Source: Clostridioides difficile ATCC 9689 = DSM 1296 (GTDB lineage: Bacteria > Bacillota > Clostridia > Peptostreptococcales > Peptostreptococcaceae). From it: 64,000 bases of DNA. A model generated the notes under the pieces. The model was not told the DNA's origin. It searched no databases and worked only from the letters and a program-made list of their open reading frames with translations. The translations under genes were made by a program, and so were the position numbers. Within the stretch, counting starts at the first letter, position 1; each line of letters begins with the position of its first letter. This document shows positions 56,917-63,630 of this stretch, piece by piece. Location of the stretch: positions 992,001-1,056,000 of the forward strand of contig NZ_CP011968.1 of NCBI RefSeq assembly GCF_001077535.1. The letters run 5' to 3'.

Positions 56917-57939
56917 CTATTCTTGTTTAGTCTTTACATAAGAAATATTTTCATTAGAAGGTTTTTCCATACCTAAAGCTTTTAATATATCTTCATTAAC
57001 AATGATATCTGTATCATCTGATGTAGCCACAGGCATATCAGATACTGATTCACCATTTAAAATTTTAACTGCCATTTCACCTGTTTTGTAACCTAGTTTT
57101 TCGTAGTTGATACCTTGACAAGCAAGAGCACCTTTTTCAACTGGCCCAGATTCAGCTGCTATAACAGGTATTTTATTCTCAGTAGCTATTTTAGAGACTA
57201 TAGGCATAGAAGAAGCCACTAAGTTATCTGTAGGAACATATAATACGTCTATTTTGCCAACTAAACTAGAAATACCTTGGTTAACTTCATTTGAAGTAGT
57301 TATACCTTTTTCAACAACTTTAAATCCATTTTTAGATGCATATTCTTTTAAAGCATCAACTTGGACTTTGGAATTTACTTCACTAGTATTGTACATAACT
57401 CCTATAGTTTTTGCCTTAGGAGCAAATATTTTAAGAAGTTCTAAACCTTTGTCTACAGAAACAAAATCTGATGTTCCAGATACATTTGTGCCTGGCTTTT
57501 CAAGAGTTTTAACTAATCCAGCAGCAACAGGGTCACTCACAGCAGTAATAAGTATAGGTATATCTTTAGTAGCATTAAATGCTGCCTGAGCTGATGGAGT
57601 AGATATAGCAAATATTAAGTCCTTCTTATCAGATGCAAATTTACTCGCAATACTTTGTGTAGTAGGCATGTCATTTTGAGCATTTTGGAAGTCTATATCA
57701 ATATTTTCTCCATCTTTAAATCCGTTCTTTTCTAATGCTTTTACAAAACCTGTTCTAGTGGCATCTAATGCTGGATGTTCAACCAGTTGAGTTATACCAA
57801 TTTTTTTAACTTCTTTACCTTTAGAATTACTTTCTTGTTTTGAATTACCAGAGTCTCCTCCTTGTGAACACCCTGTAAGCATAGATATACTAAGAGCACC
57901 AGCTAAAATCAAACTTGCCAATCTTTTTTTATTAATCAT
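56917..57939 (-). CDS. Aromatic amino acid (tyrosine)-binding lipoprotein, CD0873-type
   Basis: 340 residues; TrpX-like ABC_sub_bind family. Lipoprotein signal ends at LTGC (Cys24). GITQLVEHPALDATRTGF, DFQNAQNDMPTTQSIASKF, FAISTPSAQAAFNATKDIP and VYN/MYNTSEVNSKVQVD are conserved. I recognise it as the C. difficile CD0873 lipoprotein, reported as a surface adhesin that binds tyrosine. It is the third gene of the operon (permease, ATPase, binding protein), which begins with a leader peptide of six Tyr codons. gaggggga precedes ATG 57939. Confidence 0.9.
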   Translation of the reverse strand: MINKKRLASLILAGALSISMLTGCSQGGDSGNSKQESNSKGKEVKKIGITQLVEHPALDATRTGFVKALEKNGFKDGENIDIDFQNAQNDMPTTQSIASKFASDKKDLIFAISTPSAQAAFNATKDIPILITAVSDPVAAGLVKTLEKPGTNVSGTSDFVSVDKGLELLKIFAPKAKTIGVMYNTSEVNSKVQVDALKEYASKNGFKVVEKGITTSNEVNQGISSLVGKIDVLYVPTDNLVASSMPIVSKIATENKIPVIAAESGPVEKGALACQGINYEKLGYKTGEMAVKILNGESVSDMPVATSDDTDIIVNEDILKALGMEKPSNENISYVKTKQE

Positions 57940-58069: not shown

Positions 58070-58825
58070 TTAAACTGCATATTCAAATTTTTCTAAGATT
58101 TCTTCAACTGTTAATTGTTCTTTTTCTTTACCTTTTACATCTAATACAACTTCACCCTTATGAAGCATTATCAATCTATCACCATAATGAAGAGCGTGTT
58201 TTAAGTTGTGAGTAACCATAAGTGTAGTTATATTTTTTTCTCTTACGATTTTATCTGTTAACTCTATTACTTCATTTGATGTTTTTGGGTCAAGTGCTGC
58301 TGTATGTTCATCAAGTAATAAAACTGATGGATTTGTTAAGCACGACATAATTAGTGATAATGATTGTCTTTGACCTCCTGATAAAAATTTTACTTGAACA
58401 TCAAGGTATTTTTTTAAATCAAGAGATACACCTTCCAATAAATTTTCTAAGAAATCTCTTTTGTAACGAAGACATTTTCTTAGATTTAATAGTTTTCCTT
58501 TGTTAAGAGCTAAAGACAAGTTTTCTCTAACAGTCATAGAAGGGCAAGTTCCAAGACTTGGGTCTTGAAAAACTCTACTTACTATTTGAGTTCTTCTGTG
58601 TTCAGCTAAATTAGACAAGTTATGTTTATTTAATAATACTTGACCAGAAGATTCTTTTATAAGCCCGGATATTATATTTAATAAAGTAGATTTACCAGTT
58701 CCATTACTACCTATGATACTTACAAATTCACCATCTTCTATATCGATTGATAAATTTTCAAAGATAGTATTAGGTTCACCATATGGATTAGGGAAACTCT
58801 TTGAAAGATTTTTAATTTGTAACAT
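58070..58825 (-). CDS. Aromatic amino acid ABC transporter ATPase (first copy)
   Basis: 251 residues. Walker A GSNGTGKSTLLNIISG, Q-loop VSRVFQDPSLG, signature FLSGGQRQSLSLIM, Walker B VLLLDEHTAALDP (His after Glu as in this subfamily), switch His in VTHNLKHALHYG. It overlaps the permease gene by 14 bases with gaggtg as ribosome site. Its first third is virtually identical at DNA level to the second copy (61658-62413), while the middle differs (QVLLNKHNLSNLAEHRR here), a sign of partial gene conversion. Confidence 0.92.
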   Translation of the reverse strand: MLQIKNLSKSFPNPYGEPNTIFENLSIDIEDGEFVSIIGSNGTGKSTLLNIISGLIKESSGQVLLNKHNLSNLAEHRRTQIVSRVFQDPSLGTCPSMTVRENLSLALNKGKLLNLRKCLRYKRDFLENLLEGVSLDLKKYLDVQVKFLSGGQRQSLSLIMSCLTNPSVLLLDEHTAALDPKTSNEVIELTDKIVREKNITTLMVTHNLKHALHYGDRLIMLHKGEVVLDVKGKEKEQLTVEEILEKFEYAV

Positions 58826-59742
58826 CTACAACACCTCTTTTTTCTGATTTATTTTTGGTACTAGCTTTGCATTTGTTTTTTTTTAGTGAAATATTTAAGT
58901 TACCAGTAGCTAGGAAAGCTATTATAACTATGGCAGTTATTAGTTTTAAGTCAGTTGATAACATTCCTAAACTCATTGCAAAGTATATAGTGAATTGGTA
59001 TATAAAAGAGCCAACAATTATTGCAGTAGTATCTTTGATAAAAGTAAATTTCTTAAATAGTGTAATACCAATTATGATAGAGGCAATTCCAAGAACTAAA
59101 GTTCCTATACCCATATTTACATCTGAGAATCCCAAGAACTGAGCCATAAGACTACCAGATAAAGCTATAAGTCCATTTGAAATCATAAGTCCTAGTATTT
59201 TTATAGAACCTATATTTATACCTAGGGATTTAATCATTTGAGAGTTATCACCAACACCTTTTAAAGTGTATCCAAGACCTGTTTTTAGGAATAAATCTAA
59301 AAGGACTTTACAGATGAATACAAAAGCTAAGGCTAAAACTATAGGAGATATTTCCCCATTGAATAAGTGTTTAAAGCTAAATAGAGGAATATTTGATTTT
59401 CCCATTATTCTTAAATTGATAGAGTATAGCATTCCCATAACTAAAATACCAGAAAGTAAATTAGATATCTTAAACTTAATGTGAAGAATCCCTGTAACAA
59501 GACCAGCAGTACAACCACATAAGATAGCCATTAAAGTTGCTACTACAGGAGAAATACCATTAGTAAGAGAAAATGCTACAATAGAAGCACCCATTGTGTA
59601 GCTACCATCAGCAGACATATCTGGAAAATCTAAGATTTTGTAAGTTATATAAACCCCCAGTGCCATAATCGATAAAATTAAACTTTGCGTCATTACAGAT
59701 ATAATACCTGACATAAATAAAACACTCCTTTGAAAATATTTT
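58640..59742 (-). repeat. Long near-identical duplication (copy 1 of two)
   Basis: 58640-59742 matches 62228-63330 at a constant offset of 3588 bp. I see only about three base differences (near 58676, 58869 and 59731), synonymous sites included. It covers the permease gene, its ribosome site and the start of the ATPase gene, and ends abruptly in both directions in sequence that has diverged. Confidence 0.88.
58812..59714 (-). CDS. Aromatic amino acid ABC transporter permease (first copy)
   Basis: 300 residues, about nine membrane segments, of the TrpY/branched-chain permease fold (SADGSYTMGASIVAFSLTNG, LSGILVMGMLYSINLRIMG, GNLNISLKKNK). It is the first structural gene after the Tyr-leader attenuator. 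Identical to the second permease apart from a Cys/Tyr change in the C-terminal KNKCKAST. The shared permease implies that specificity between the two operons must come from the binding proteins. aaaggagtg precedes ATG 59714. Confidence 0.92.
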   Translation of the reverse strand: MSGIISVMTQSLILSIMALGVYITYKILDFPDMSADGSYTMGASIVAFSLTNGISPVVATLMAILCGCTAGLVTGILHIKFKISNLLSGILVMGMLYSINLRIMGKSNIPLFSFKHLFNGEISPIVLALAFVFICKVLLDLFLKTGLGYTLKGVGDNSQMIKSLGINIGSIKILGLMISNGLIALSGSLMAQFLGFSDVNMGIGTLVLGIASIIIGITLFKKFTFIKDTTAIIVGSFIYQFTIYFAMSLGMLSTDLKLITAIVIIAFLATGNLNISLKKNKCKASTKNKSEKRGVVDVTN

Positions 59743-59774: not shown

Positions 59775-59807
59775 AAAAAAACCACATAGTGTACAAAACT
59801 ATGTGGT
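59775..59807 (-). terminator. Attenuator terminator of the Tyr-leader operon
   Basis: Segment 6 ACCACATAGT (59807-59798) pairs with segment 7 ACTATGTGGT (59790-59781), followed by six T on the minus strand. Segment 6 can alternatively pair with segment 5 just upstream, which would prevent the terminator. Confidence 0.9.
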
Positions 59808-59820
59808 AAAAACACGAATA

Positions 59821-59958
59821 AGCCACATAGTTTAATCTATGTGGCTCTTATATAGTTAAATGAAAACTTTATAAACAATATAGCCAACATAGATACAATC
59901 CCAAAATTTTAGTAGTCTTAAGGGGTCTGTATCTATGTTAAAACGTAGGTACAAACCC
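59821..59958 (-). promoter_or_regulatory. Attenuator RNA, segments 1 to 5 (Tyr leader)
   Basis: Segments on the transcript: 1 59958-59942, 2 59939-59923, 3 59902-59882, 4 59846-59837, 5 59830-59821. Pairings possible are 1:2 or 2:3, 3:4 or 4:5, 5:6 or 6:7 (segments 6 and 7 form the terminator). Thus 1:2, 3:4, 5:6 are compatible and exclude the terminator, while 2:3, 4:5, 6:7 include it. Segment 2:3 has 16 of 17 positions pairing. The leader peptide's UAG lies on the first base of segment 1. Confidence 0.85.
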
Positions 59959-60014
59959 TAAAAATAGTGGCTATAATAATAATAATATTTTCTATTGTTT
60001 AATAAAGTATTCAT
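59958..60014 (-). CDS. Tyr-rich leader peptide of the aromatic ABC operon
   Basis: An 18-codon frame, MNTLLNNRKYYYYYSHYF, ends in TAG. Codons 10-14 are five consecutive TAT (Tyr), and codon 17 is a sixth. aaagggagag lies 7 bases before the ATG at 60014. The Tyr run falls 5-9 codons before the stop, and the stop overlaps RNA segment 1. A six-Tyr content in 18 codons directly before a tyrosine transporter is the mark of ribosome-mediated attenuation. The second operon has a related peptide sharing M.TLLN, but with Phe. Confidence 0.88.
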   Translation of the reverse strand: MNTLLNNRKYYYYYSHYF

Positions 60015-60079
60015 AATTATCTCTCCCTTTTAATATTTTAATTAGTCAGAAAATTATATGTATTCTCGACTTGTTATAA

Positions 60080-60108
60080 ATTATAAATTATACAATAATA
60101 AAAGTCAA
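60080..60108 (-). promoter_or_regulatory. Promoter of the Tyr-leader ABC operon
   Basis: On the minus strand TTGACT (60108-60103), 17-bp spacer, TATAAT (60085-60080). The transcript starts near 60073, about 60 bases before the leader ATG. Confidence 0.85.
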
Positions 60109-60523: not shown

Positions 60524-61561
60524 TTATTTTGCAGATTTTGCATTTTCATCTGACTTTATATACTTTATATTATCTGCTGATAACTTTTGCATGTCAAGTG
60601 CTTTTAGTGTATCTTCGTTAATTATTATTTCAGTTTCATCTAATGTAGTAACTGGTATATCGCCAACAGATTTTCCTTCTAATACTTCAATAGCAAGTTC
60701 TCCAGCCTTATAACCTAGTTTTTCATAATCTATTCCACAACAAGCTAAAGCACCAGAAGATACAGAACCTTCTTCAGAGGCTATTATAGGAATCTTGTTT
60801 TCATTAGCAACTTTAGAAACTATTGGCATAGAAGAAACTATTAAATTGTCAGTAGGGACATATAAAACATCTATTTTGCCAACTAAACTAGAAATAGCTT
60901 GGTTAACTTCACTTGAAGAGCTGATTCCTTTTTCAAATACTTCATAATTATTTTTCTTAGCATAATCATGTAGAGAATCAACTTGGATTTTTGAATTAAC
61001 TTCACTAGTATTGTATATAACCCCTATTTTCTTTGCTTTTGGAGTCAATGTTTTAACCAATTCTAATGTTTTATCAATTGAAAGATAATCAGATGTACCA
61101 GAAACATTTCCACCTGGTTTTTCAAGAGATTTAACAAGTCCAGCTTCTACAGGGTCTGTAACAGCAGTCATTATTATCGGAATATCTTTAGTAGAATTAT
61201 AAGCTGCTTGTGCAGATGGAGTAGATATAGCATATATCAAATCTTTTTTGTCGGATACAAACTTACTAGCAATACTTTGTGTAGTAGGCATATCATTTTG
61301 TGCATTTTGGAAATCTATTTTTATATTATCTCCATCTTTATAGCCTTTATCTTCGAGTGCTTTGATGAATCCTTTCTTTGCTTTATCCAGAGATGGATGT
61401 TCCACTAATTGACTAATACCTATATTTTTTTGTTTTTTGCTATCTGTTTCTTTATTTTCATTTGAAGCATTGGAGCCATCATTTTGAGAACATCCAGTAA
61501 GCATTGATACACCAAGTACTCCTGCTATAATTAAACTTAATATTTTTTTACTTTTTATCAT
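60524..61561 (-). CDS. Aromatic amino acid-binding lipoprotein, paralogue (Phe candidate)
   Basis: 345 residues, same family as the protein at 56917; lipobox LTGC with Cys24. The folds align without gaps over most of the length (GISQLVEHPSLDKAKKGF, DFQNAQNDMPTTQSIASKF), yet many positions differ, such as AYNSTKDIP for AFNATKDIP and ASEEGSVSSG for AAESGPVEKG, some near the likely ligand pocket. Third gene of the second operon, whose leader peptide has Phe rather than Tyr codons, so phenylalanine is a reasonable candidate ligand. aagggagg precedes ATG 61561. Confidence 0.85.
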   Translation of the reverse strand: MIKSKKILSLIIAGVLGVSMLTGCSQNDGSNASNENKETDSKKQKNIGISQLVEHPSLDKAKKGFIKALEDKGYKDGDNIKIDFQNAQNDMPTTQSIASKFVSDKKDLIYAISTPSAQAAYNSTKDIPIIMTAVTDPVEAGLVKSLEKPGGNVSGTSDYLSIDKTLELVKTLTPKAKKIGVIYNTSEVNSKIQVDSLHDYAKKNNYEVFEKGISSSSEVNQAISSLVGKIDVLYVPTDNLIVSSMPIVSKVANENKIPIIASEEGSVSSGALACCGIDYEKLGYKAGELAIEVLEGKSVGDIPVTTLDETEIIINEDTLKALDMQKLSADNIKYIKSDENAKSAK

Positions 61562-61657: not shown

Positions 61658-62413
61658 TTATACTGCATATTCAAATTTTTCTAAGATTTCTTCAACTGTT
61701 AAATCTTCTTTTTCTTTATCTTTTACATCTAATACAACTTCACCCTTATGAAGCATTATCAACCTATCTCCATATTGAAGAGCGTGTTTCAAGTTGTGAG
61801 TAACCATAAGTGTAGTTATATTTTTTTCTCTTACGATTTTATCTGTTAACTCTATTACTTCATTTGATGTTTTTGGGTCAAGTGCTGCTGTATGTTCGTC
61901 TAGTAATAAGACCTTAGGACTTGCTAAGCTAGACATAATTAGTGATAGTGATTGTCTTTGACCTCCTGAAAGATATTGTACTTTAATATCTAAATATTTT
62001 TTTAAATCCAAAGAAATTCCTTCAAGTAAGTGTTCCAAGTCATTCGTTTTATGACGAAGACATTTTTTTAAGTTCAATAATTTCCCTTTATTAAGTGCTA
62101 GAGATAAATTTTCTCTAACCGTCATAGAAGGACAAGTTCCAAGGCTTGGGTCTTGAAAAACTCTACTTACTATTTGAGTTCTTTTATACTCAGCTAAATT
62201 TGTTATAGTAGTACTATCTAAAGTAATTTGACCAGAAGATTCTTTTATAAGCCCAGATATTATATTTAATAAAGTAGATTTACCAGTTCCATTACTACCT
62301 ATGATACTTACAAATTCACCATCTTCTATATCGATTGATAAATTTTCAAAGATAGTATTAGGTTCACCATATGGATTAGGGAAACTCTTTGAAAGATTTT
62401 TAATTTGTAACAT
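61658..62413 (-). CDS. Aromatic amino acid ABC transporter ATPase (second copy)
   Basis: 251 residues with the same motifs as the first copy: GSNGTGKSTLL, FLSGG-type YLSGGQRQSLSLIM and LLLDEHTAALDP. Its first ~75 codons match copy one almost base for base, then it diverges (QITLDSTTITNLAEYKR) and becomes similar again at the C-terminus. Overlaps its permease gene by 14 bases. Confidence 0.92.
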   Translation of the reverse strand: MLQIKNLSKSFPNPYGEPNTIFENLSIDIEDGEFVSIIGSNGTGKSTLLNIISGLIKESSGQITLDSTTITNLAEYKRTQIVSRVFQDPSLGTCPSMTVRENLSLALNKGKLLNLKKCLRHKTNDLEHLLEGISLDLKKYLDIKVQYLSGGQRQSLSLIMSSLASPKVLLLDEHTAALDPKTSNEVIELTDKIVREKNITTLMVTHNLKHALQYGDRLIMLHKGEVVLDVKDKEKEDLTVEEILEKFEYAV

Positions 62414-63330
62414 CTACAACACCTCTTTTTTCTGATTTATTTTTGGTACTAGCTTTGTATTTGTTTTTTTTTAGTGAAATATTTAAGTTACCAGTAGCTA
62501 GGAAAGCTATTATAACTATGGCAGTTATTAGTTTTAAGTCAGTTGATAACATTCCTAAACTCATTGCAAAGTATATAGTGAATTGGTATATAAAAGAGCC
62601 AACAATTATTGCAGTAGTATCTTTGATAAAAGTAAATTTCTTAAATAGTGTAATACCAATTATGATAGAGGCAATTCCAAGAACTAAAGTTCCTATACCC
62701 ATATTTACATCTGAGAATCCCAAGAACTGAGCCATAAGACTACCAGATAAAGCTATAAGTCCATTTGAAATCATAAGTCCTAGTATTTTTATAGAACCTA
62801 TATTTATACCTAGGGATTTAATCATTTGAGAGTTATCACCAACACCTTTTAAAGTGTATCCAAGACCTGTTTTTAGGAATAAATCTAAAAGGACTTTACA
62901 GATGAATACAAAAGCTAAGGCTAAAACTATAGGAGATATTTCCCCATTGAATAAGTGTTTAAAGCTAAATAGAGGAATATTTGATTTTCCCATTATTCTT
63001 AAATTGATAGAGTATAGCATTCCCATAACTAAAATACCAGAAAGTAAATTAGATATCTTAAACTTAATGTGAAGAATCCCTGTAACAAGACCAGCAGTAC
63101 AACCACATAAGATAGCCATTAAAGTTGCTACTACAGGAGAAATACCATTAGTAAGAGAAAATGCTACAATAGAAGCACCCATTGTGTAGCTACCATCAGC
63201 AGACATATCTGGAAAATCTAAGATTTTGTAAGTTATATAAACCCCCAGTGCCATAATCGATAAAATTAAACTTTGCGTCATTACAGATATAATACCTGAC
63301 ATAAATAAAACACCCCTTTGAAAATATTTT
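62228..63330 (-). repeat. Long near-identical duplication (copy 2 of two)
   Basis: Counterpart of 58640-59742. Ends just upstream of the permease ribosome site, before the attenuator, whose sequence has diverged but whose fold has been kept. Confidence 0.88.
62400..63302 (-). CDS. Aromatic amino acid ABC transporter permease (second copy)
   Basis: 300 residues, identical to the first permease except Tyr for Cys in KNKYKAST. The start is ATG 63302 (MSGIISVMTQ) with aaaggggtg before it. The frame is open further upstream to 63407, but that part is the attenuator terminator and is not expected to be translated. Confidence 0.92.
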   Translation of the reverse strand: MSGIISVMTQSLILSIMALGVYITYKILDFPDMSADGSYTMGASIVAFSLTNGISPVVATLMAILCGCTAGLVTGILHIKFKISNLLSGILVMGMLYSINLRIMGKSNIPLFSFKHLFNGEISPIVLALAFVFICKVLLDLFLKTGLGYTLKGVGDNSQMIKSLGINIGSIKILGLMISNGLIALSGSLMAQFLGFSDVNMGIGTLVLGIASIIIGITLFKKFTFIKDTTAIIVGSFIYQFTIYFAMSLGMLSTDLKLITAIVIIAFLATGNLNISLKKNKYKASTKNKSEKRGVVDVTN

Positions 63331-63372: not shown

Positions 63373-63405
63373 AAAAAAACCACACAGTATATATAACTGT
63401 ATGGC
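63373..63405 (-). terminator. Attenuator terminator of the Phe-leader operon
   Basis: Segment 6 GCCATACAGT (63405-63396) pairs with segment 7 ACTGTGTGG (63388-63380), followed by seven T. G-U pairs replace A-U and G-C pairs of the first operon, so the fold is kept while the bases differ. Confidence 0.88.
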
Positions 63406-63418
63406 AAAAATTCGAATA

Positions 63419-63577
63419 AGCCACACAGTATAATCCATGTGGCTCTATATTATGATGATAAAATAAAAACTTTAACAACAATTACTATAGCCAACATAGA
63501 TACAATCCTTAAAAATCATAATCCTAAGGGGCTTGTATCTATGTTATGACAATTTGTCTTAACTTAGGTACAAACCC
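63419..63577 (-). promoter_or_regulatory. Attenuator RNA, segments 1 to 5 (Phe leader)
   Basis: Segments: 1 63577-63561, 2 63545-63528, 3 63510-63489, 4 63444-63435, 5 63428-63419. The same alternative chains as in the first operon can form: 1:2, 3:4, 5:6 or 2:3, 4:5, 6:7. Compensatory changes appear in segments 4, 5, 6 and 7 (CATGG/CTGTG/CATACAG for CATAG/CTATG/CACATAG), which supports selection on the fold. Confidence 0.83.
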
Positions 63578-63630
63578 TAACTAAATTGGCTACTAAAAAA
63601 TCGTACTTGTTTGTTTAATAAAGTCTTCAT
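63577..63630 (-). CDS. Phe-containing leader peptide of the second aromatic ABC operon
   Basis: A 17-codon frame, MKTLLNKQVRFFSSQFS, ends in TAG. Codons 11, 12 and 16 are TTT (Phe); no Tyr occurs. aaaaggagagg lies about 6 bases before ATG 63630. The FF pair lies 6-7 codons before the stop, within the span occupied by the Tyr run of the first leader. The stop again overlaps segment 1. Three Ser codons are present too, so Phe is likely but not proven as the sensed amino acid. Confidence 0.8.
   Translation of the reverse strand: MKTLLNKQVRFFSSQFS

Follow-up and report, generated by a model that had tools for sequence, protein, structure and literature searches.

What governs transcription of the CD0873-type transporter operon in Clostridioides difficile? 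The question is raised by positions 59775 to 60108 of the window (the whole stretch analyzed here, 64,000 nucleotides of strain ATCC 9689 = DSM 1296), where a short reading frame rich in Tyr codons precedes a chain of RNA segments with alternative pairing partners and a terminator. Leader-peptide attenuation is a classical mechanism, and Firmicutes are thought to read tRNA charging mainly via T-boxes. The genome contains 25 T-boxes (RF00230, cut-off 93), none of them in the window or at the operons discussed here. As argued below from sequence comparison, the RNA is very probably a ribosome-mediated transcription attenuator that reads the charging of Tyr-tRNA, and the same chassis recurs elsewhere with Phe, His, Leu, Tyr/Phe, and Trp codons.

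The layout of the locus is summarized in the table. The initial annotation had read here a promoter of the form TTGACT-17-TATAAT, a strong ribosome site, an 18-codon frame with six Tyr codons, five of them consecutive, and seven RNA segments with alternating pairing that end in a T6 terminator. All of these elements are present in the sequence. TTGACT occupies 60108-60103 and TATAAT 60085-60080 on the minus strand, spaced by 17 nucleotides; GGGAGAG forms the ribosome site ahead of the leader ATG at 60014, also on the minus strand; the frame encodes MNTLLNNRKYYYYYSHYF; and six T follow the terminator stem in the run ending at 59775, or seven if the stem-closing T is counted. The list of segments 1 to 7 stands, and two elements were missing from it: segment 0 (59975-59968), inside the ORF, and an anti-start linker (59878-59859). 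The stretch between 59000 and 61000 holds three terminator-like sites, against a mean of 0.5 in shuffled sequences, and two of the three fall within the Tyr leader. Hairpin 4:5 is itself terminator-like, with a U-run that is weak in the window leader and strong in several relatives. The sequence TATTATTATTATTAT occurs three times in the 4.15 Mb genome, both strands counted. An ORF with its ribosome site, a cognate codon run, mutually exclusive folds, and an intrinsic terminator ahead of the first gene are thus all found in the window leader.

Table. Features of the Tyr-leader operon and the neighboring Phe-leader operon, in window coordinates.
Feature	Position	Strand	Evidence
Promoter-like site TTGACT-17-TATAAT	60080..60108	minus	11/12 consensus matches
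Ribosome binding site AAAGGGAGAG of the leader ORF	60021..60030	minus	sequence
Tyr leader ORF MNTLLNNRKYYYYYSHYF and stop	59958..60014	minus	sequence; homologous ORFs in relatives
Segment 0, TATAGCCA within the ORF; partner is the 3' half of segment 3	59968..59975	minus	covariation
Segment 1; first base is the last base of the stop codon	59942..59958	minus	alignment of 24 leaders
Segment 2; partner 1 or 3	59923..59939	minus	alignment of 24 leaders
Segment 3; partner 2, 0, or 4	59879..59902	minus	alignment of 24 leaders
Linker (anti-start), complementary to the start codon region of the leader	59859..59878	minus	start:linker energies
Segment 4	59835..59846	minus	alignment of 24 leaders
Segment 5; 4:5 is the first terminator-like hairpin, U-run weak here	59821..59830	minus	terminator scan, alignment
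Segment 6	59796..59807	minus	alignment of 24 leaders
Segment 7 with the T run; 6:7 forms the terminator hairpin	59775..59790	minus	terminator scan, alignment
Permease (BPD_transp_2), first gene of the Tyr-leader operon	58812..59714	minus	domain match
ABC ATPase, Tyr-leader operon	58070..58825	minus	domain match
Substrate-binding lipoprotein CD0873 (ABC_sub_bind, PF04392), Tyr-leader operon	56917..57939	minus	domain; structures 6hni/6hnj/6hnk
Paralogous Phe leader ORF MKTLLNKQVRFFSSQFS and stop	63577..63630	minus	sequence
Phe leader RNA, same segments, terminator at the end	63375..63576	minus	sequence, alignment, model match
Permease of the Phe-leader operon, 1/903 bases unlike the other copy	62400..63302	minus	domain match, DNA comparison
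Substrate-binding lipoprotein, Phe-leader operon (CD0876 by gene order)	60524..61561	minus	domain match

Comparison with relatives shows a conserved ORF with Tyr codons and a chain of segments predicted to adopt two conserved, mutually exclusive folds. When tyrosine is plentiful, the ribosome would reach the stop codon and cover segments 0 and 1, so that 2:3 forms; segment 4 would then be left to segment 5, 6:7 would form, and transcription would end. With no ribosome on the RNA, 0:3 and the anti-start pairing would hold segment 3, and transcription would end too. A ribosome held on the Tyr run would create the only state in which segment 0 is covered and segment 1 free; 1:2 could then form, followed by 3:4 and by 5:6, and with these hairpins in place ahead of the terminators, RNA polymerase would read into the transporter genes. 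The initial annotation had proposed that a Tyr stall frees segment 1 and leads to read-through by 1:2, 3:4, and 5:6, and the comparison lends support to this scheme because both conformers are kept with compensatory changes, a paralogue carries Phe codons, and His runs stand before his genes. The simple scheme needs amending: in it, an untranslated RNA would read through, while folding through 0:3 and start:linker predicts termination in leaders of this type.

The breadth of conservation was assessed on permease-encoding loci, 80 of which were kept from 123. The permease is present in 31 of 71 genomes of the family. Leaders of the CD0873 type, also seen in family genomes, lie upstream of it in 21 of the 79 loci scanned; the scan covered the stretch directly before the permease, which in many of the distant loci stands behind other genes. 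The hosts are Clostridioides, Metaclostridioides, Asaccharospora, Peptacetobacter, Peptostreptococcus, Tepidibacter, and Marinisporobacter, joined by Lutibacter sp. B2, Clostridium acetireducens, C. tetanomorphum, and two metagenome-assembled genomes. Three candidates (L003-L005) were rejected as chance matches to a ribosome site and ATG in the genome of the window itself.

Covariation across relatives, a check that the initial annotation had called for, bears out both conformers, which are conserved with compensatory changes in the 24 aligned leaders. In the terminating fold (2:3, 4:5, 6:7), 94.1% of 846 alignment cells are paired, and 11 of 36 pairs have changed on both sides, a number equaled in 2 of 500 shuffles; the covariation score was reached by none of 500, and the count of further pair types, a weak measure, was equaled by 66 of 500. 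The antiterminating fold (1:2, 3:4, 5:6) is paired in 92.0% of 865 cells, and 13 of its 38 pairs have changed on both sides (0/500 shuffles). Its weak spots are three pairs near the 1:2 loop, only 58% paired, and the poorly paired far end of 5:6. Controls with slid partners gave 26-49% pairing for the two folds, or 17-57% when 0:3 is included. P. russellii fits the segment scheme most poorly. Among the Phe leaders, those of M. mangenotii and a relative (L022, L024) seem, judged by eye, to carry at least three tandem terminator-like hairpins. Three others of the Phe class (L027, L032, L040) have only two Phe codons, with Val or Ile codons in most Phe places; they count against the favored explanation and are possibly a broader or weaker sensor.

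Two further pairings connect the leader ORF with the RNA behind it. Segment 0, the final part of the ORF, reads TATAGCCA; its partner within segment 3 is TGGCTATA, with 91.6% of cells paired across the 24 leaders and changes on both sides at 3 of the 8 pairs. In 23 of 24 leaders, the linker that separates segments 3 and 4 is complementary to the start codon and about seven codons, with a mean energy of -13.5 kcal/mol for cognate pairs, -8.7 between clades, and -5.4 after shuffling; 23 of 24 rows are stronger than the mean of other clades, and some non-cognate pairs beat the cognate one. Both 0:3 and start:linker are predicted to obstruct 3:4. The start:linker pairing reaches p <= 0.05 in 22 of 23 clostridial CD0873-type leaders versus 5 of 70 other records, and it was discarded as a family-wide feature on this count and on that of the Trp leaders described below, which pair no better than shuffled sequences (22 of 70 better).

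Folding with ribosomes represented as masks gave a mixed picture that is partly consistent with an attenuator and counts as support rather than proof. When the RNA was cut before segment 5, the probability of 3:4 without a ribosome was at most 0.03 in all 24 leaders. It exceeded 0.5 with a ribosome on the aromatic run in 7 of 24 leaders when a single ribosome was placed, and in 19 of 24 when the upstream ORF was covered as well; both M. mangenotii Tyr rows, Lutibacter sp. B2, Marinisporobacter, and L115 failed in both modes. In the fold prediction, another check put forward at the outset, equilibrium chooses 4:5 once segment 5 is present: for both C. difficile leaders this hairpin then has a probability of 1.0 wherever the ribosome is placed. 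Since equilibrium favors 4:5 in both, antitermination has to be kinetic, and read-through would depend on the order of folding. Among the 100 classified records of the wider family introduced below, sequestration of segment 4 is higher with a ribosome on the run than without one in 83, and higher than with the ribosome at the stop position in 86. Without a ribosome, segment 4 is paired upstream with mean values of 0.49 for His, 0.49 for Tyr/Phe, 0.62 for Leu, 0.32 for Tyr, and 0.22 for Phe leaders; the high values mean that termination without translation is not predicted in the wider family. Sequestration is also high with the ribosome placed before the run (Tyr/Phe 0.69, Leu 0.85).

By gene order, we take the neighbors of CD0873 in the Tyr-leader operon to be CD0874 and CD0875. 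The lipoprotein gene is CD0873 by structure match, and CD0873 is described as a tyrosine-binding protein (PMC6816091), in keeping with the initial annotation. In faecal water, expression of CD0873-0875 is reported to fall more than 100-fold, the largest drop recorded there (PMC6232153). A second operon lies next to the first, and its leader keeps the same RNA chassis, with Phe codons in MKTLLNKQVRFFSSQFS replacing the Tyr codons of MNTLLNNRKYYYYYSHYF. The two operons are 82% identical in DNA from the ORF to segment 7 and 75% in the binding protein genes; the permease genes (58812-59714 and 62400-63302) differ at 1 of 903 bases, and their near-identity extends into the ATPase gene. By this comparison, the sensing and binding parts have diverged around an unchanged shared channel, and the near-identical permeases suggest both gene conversion and a hotspot of recombination. 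A crossover between the identical permease genes would place the CD0873 genes downstream of the Phe leader. In the contigs of strain 173070 (L014, L015), the Phe leader has a CD0873-like gene behind it and the Tyr leader a CD0876-like gene in front, either a rearrangement or an assembly error at the repeat.

In the Phe-leader operon, the binding protein and the ATPase are encoded by CDR20291_0805-0806, which correspond to CD0876-CD0877 (PMC6816091). CD0876 has been proposed as another tyrosine transporter (PMC6816091), and its Phe leader suggests that it serves Phe at least in part. According to PMC5951980, strains that have lost CDR20291_0805-0806 show reduced uptake of Tyr and Phe and reduced p-cresol production, and such a loss has recurred at this repeat. 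The same source reports that deletions in the Phe-leader operon lower p-cresol, a Tyr product, more than Phe products, an effect that counts against the explanation favored here. Glu263, said to recognize the Tyr hydroxyl, failed as a marker of Tyr versus Phe binding: it is kept in both leader classes and is Asp in one L020 protein. Position 266 is mostly His in binding proteins with Tyr leaders, Ser with Phe leaders, and Pro in CD0873; as a specificity marker it is suggestive only, being confounded by descent.

The chassis extends well beyond this family of transporters. A first covariance model (R1) covered segments 0 to 5 and was trained exclusively on Tyr and Phe leaders. At E <= 0.01 it matched 49 of 71 genomes of the family and 28 of 391 of the class, some of the class matches being spurious. 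Despite its training it found His and Leu runs, among them the C. difficile hisZ leader (E 2.3e-6), which has five His codons and encodes MVRLNIVKLNTKLNHHHHHRLKGL. Five weak matches among the 64 examined (L179, L180, L181, L188, L231) lack the family ORF and were set aside. A second model built without any Trp leader (R2) matched 20 of 391 class genomes and 58 of 198 sampled genomes of the order at E <= 0.001; the window leader is no isolated rarity, and the initial annotation had called such attenuation uncommon in Firmicutes. In total, 120 matches in 99 loci yielded 101 records after 19 palindromic echoes on the opposite strand were dropped. A leader ORF ends within the model in 101 of 101 records, with a loose ribosome-site pattern and the L020 ORF set by hand, and ORF presence is not fully independent of the match because both models include the last ORF codons.

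By codon run, these records comprise 46 His, 20 Tyr, 16 Tyr/Phe, 13 Phe, and 5 Leu leaders and one unclear case. The latter, L283 (G430), is a weak match with leader MLKVQFIKLNNGYNI, kept among the 101 without a class; the gene behind it is presumably an aspartyl-tRNA synthetase, and it may represent a further specificity or chance. Downstream genes were assigned by the best BLAST hit to 21 annotated representatives, with several hisZ and TrpX hits under curated cut-offs. On this assignment, His runs precede hisZ-like genes in 29 of 29 cases, hisS in 10 of 10, and SBP_bac_3 genes in 5 of 5, and otherwise only one NhaC gene and one gene without assignment. Aromatic runs precede the CD0875-type permease (18/18), ABC_sub_bind (5/5), and BrnQ genes (11/11). 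SNF symporters follow 14 aromatic and 5 Leu leaders, NhaC genes one Tyr and one His leader, and two genes are without assignment. Synonymous codons are used in both classes, CAT 158 and CAC 32 times in His leaders, TAT 87 and TAC 18 times in Tyr leaders. In 93 of 100 records, pairing between the ORF end and the segment 3 of the same leader is better than the average with segment 3 of other classes. The aromatic codons before BrnQ genes (L200, L161, L197, L199, L157, L163, and similar) do not match their branched-chain annotation. BrnQ-type carriers with aromatic leaders may transport aromatic amino acids; should the annotation be right, the mismatch counts against the favored explanation.

The Trp members of the family come from an RNA already in Rfam. 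The trpB motif (RF04312, SRC-39-1), with over 900 representatives, ranks among the strong riboswitch candidates of PMC11109978, which leaves a classic attenuator open. The window leader scores 44.7 bits against RF04312 (E 3.7e-5), under the gathering cut-off of 59; a mir-218 model matches the same hairpins at E 5.1e-5, so the score alone proves little, and the leader is a relative of RF04312 rather than a member. Among other loci, 10 of 11 score 36-56 bits, 6 of them at E <= 0.002. RF04312 was matched at E <= 1e-4 by 173 of 395 genomes in the order of genome G834, with 60 above the Rfam cut-off; even sampling of the phylum gave matches in 3 of 398 genomes. None of the 12 further genomes reached through the loci, some of them Fusobacteriaceae, has a match, and the published range in Fusobacteria is thus unconfirmed by them.

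Since RF04312 begins after the ORF, a search for an ORF with Trp codons upstream of it is an independent test. We examined 70 matches from 68 genomes, made up of the 30 best loci and 40 lower ones among the matches listed, related genomes not being independent. A Trp codon occurs in the last 14 codons of an ORF in 70 of these 70 listed matches, and two or more in 49; shuffled controls gave 2.2% for one Trp and 0.1% for two or more, and the reverse strand 0 of 70. The next gene is TrpX-like in 63, TrpB-like in 5, and without a call in 2, with 8 annotated. R2 recognizes all 30 loci given to it out of the 70, at E <= 0.002. Of the 70 Trp leaders, 65 exceed the non-cognate mean in 1:2 pairing and 53 in 0:3 pairing, and start:linker is absent. 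From the upstream Trp-codon ORF and the recognition by R2, the trpB motif seems to represent the RNA half of this leader-attenuator design. CD0873 and TrpX match one NCBIfam model, CD0873 under its cut-off, and by this match would belong to a single transporter family, whose leaders carry Trp codons in one order and Tyr or Phe codons in Clostridia. RF02863, known as Enterococcus sRNA 2410, is passed by L197 (61.3 against a cut-off of 61), one of six BrnQ-type loci tested; the window leader scores 23.3 bits, under that cut-off.

These results bear directly on whether the RNA senses a ligand by itself. A riboswitch in which hairpin 2:3 binds the amino acid or a related compound, as proposed for the trpB motif, would draw on the ranking in PMC11109978 and on the well conserved core sequence of 2:3. 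It is nonetheless very unlikely: the Trp-codon ORF lies directly upstream in every one of the 70 listed matches, an ORF with a classified codon run is found in 100 of 101 records, the codons vary by gene family while the hairpin stays recognizable, every segment has competing partners, and PMC11109978 itself allows a classic attenuator. Equally improbable is sensing of the free amino acid by the nascent chain, as in TnaC, where the peptide rather than codon supply stalls the ribosome. Conserved peptide ends (SQFR, SHYF, WQNWRR) would agree with it; yet these end codons double as pairing segment 0, the peptide outside the codon run varies widely, and uptake genes are expected to rise on starvation, not on excess. 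A general sensor of slowed translation (antibiotics, cold) without amino-acid specificity, in which any ribosome held on the run gives the same fold, has the slimmest chance of all, given His runs in 39 of 39 hisZ-like and hisS leaders and otherwise only before SBP_bac_3 genes, one NhaC gene, and one gene without assignment, and Trp codons throughout the 70 listed trpB matches.

It is likely that one homologous chassis spans the Clostridia, extends to one or more orders in another class of the phylum, and has repeatedly been re-coded for Trp, Tyr, Phe, His, or Leu through the codon run and its pairing partner. This would explain the trpB motif and perhaps Enterococcus sRNA 2410, and transporter specificity would be readable from the leaders, as with BrnQ and its Tyr/Phe runs. 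CD0873-type leaders would have gained, in addition, locks inside the ORF that end transcription except with a ribosome at the right codons.

In Proteobacteria, the his leader is a chain of alternating segments. The present leaders resemble the trp and his attenuators of Proteobacteria in their codon-rich ORF, exclusive folds, intrinsic terminator, and segment chain. They differ in that the stalled ribosome would stand upstream of segment 1, which stays free, and in that the ORF of CD0873-type leaders pairs with the RNA through 0:3 and start:linker; no proteobacterial leader family of Rfam matches at its cut-off in the window or at 12 further loci. Closer to home, His attenuators are described before his operons of Peptostreptococcaceae, including C. 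difficile (PMC9413887), and His leaders before hisZ and hisS are predicted in bacilli (PMC2965389). The C. difficile hisZ leader matched by our Tyr/Phe model is presumably the one in PMC9413887; as far as the accessible parts of both papers go, they treat His only, without a link to Tyr, Phe, Leu, or Trp leaders. The Leu-rich attenuator of the Staphylococcus aureus ilv operon, supported by mutants (PMC5794164), is likewise leader-peptide attenuation in Firmicutes with genetic support; likened here by its description in that source, it has a different antiterminator and serves a biosynthetic operon.

Attenuation by leaders as such and His leaders before his genes are already known. As far as searched, the Tyr, Phe, Leu, and Trp members, the RNA chassis common to them, and the identification of the trpB motif are new: a literature search, with most subscription journals outside its reach, found no earlier report of these members or their unity. 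The two hairpins of the trpB motif correspond to 2:3 and 4:5 of the present family, and the accessible text of PMC11109978 gives no leader peptide for the motif, whose Rfam model starts after the ORF; the leader family would supply a mechanism for this published riboswitch candidate and its more than 900 representatives. The consensus of RF02863 can be read as an ORF end followed by hairpins like 2:3 and 4:5, unlike its filing as an sRNA. Leader codons would serve as a readable label of transporter specificity, and in C. difficile, Tyr versus Phe codons set apart two nearly identical transporters of aromatic amino acids that have been linked to p-cresol production. T-box riboswitches (RF00230) also read tRNA charging in Firmicutes; beside them, a wide leader-peptide family with interchangeable codon runs would be a second solution to the same task.
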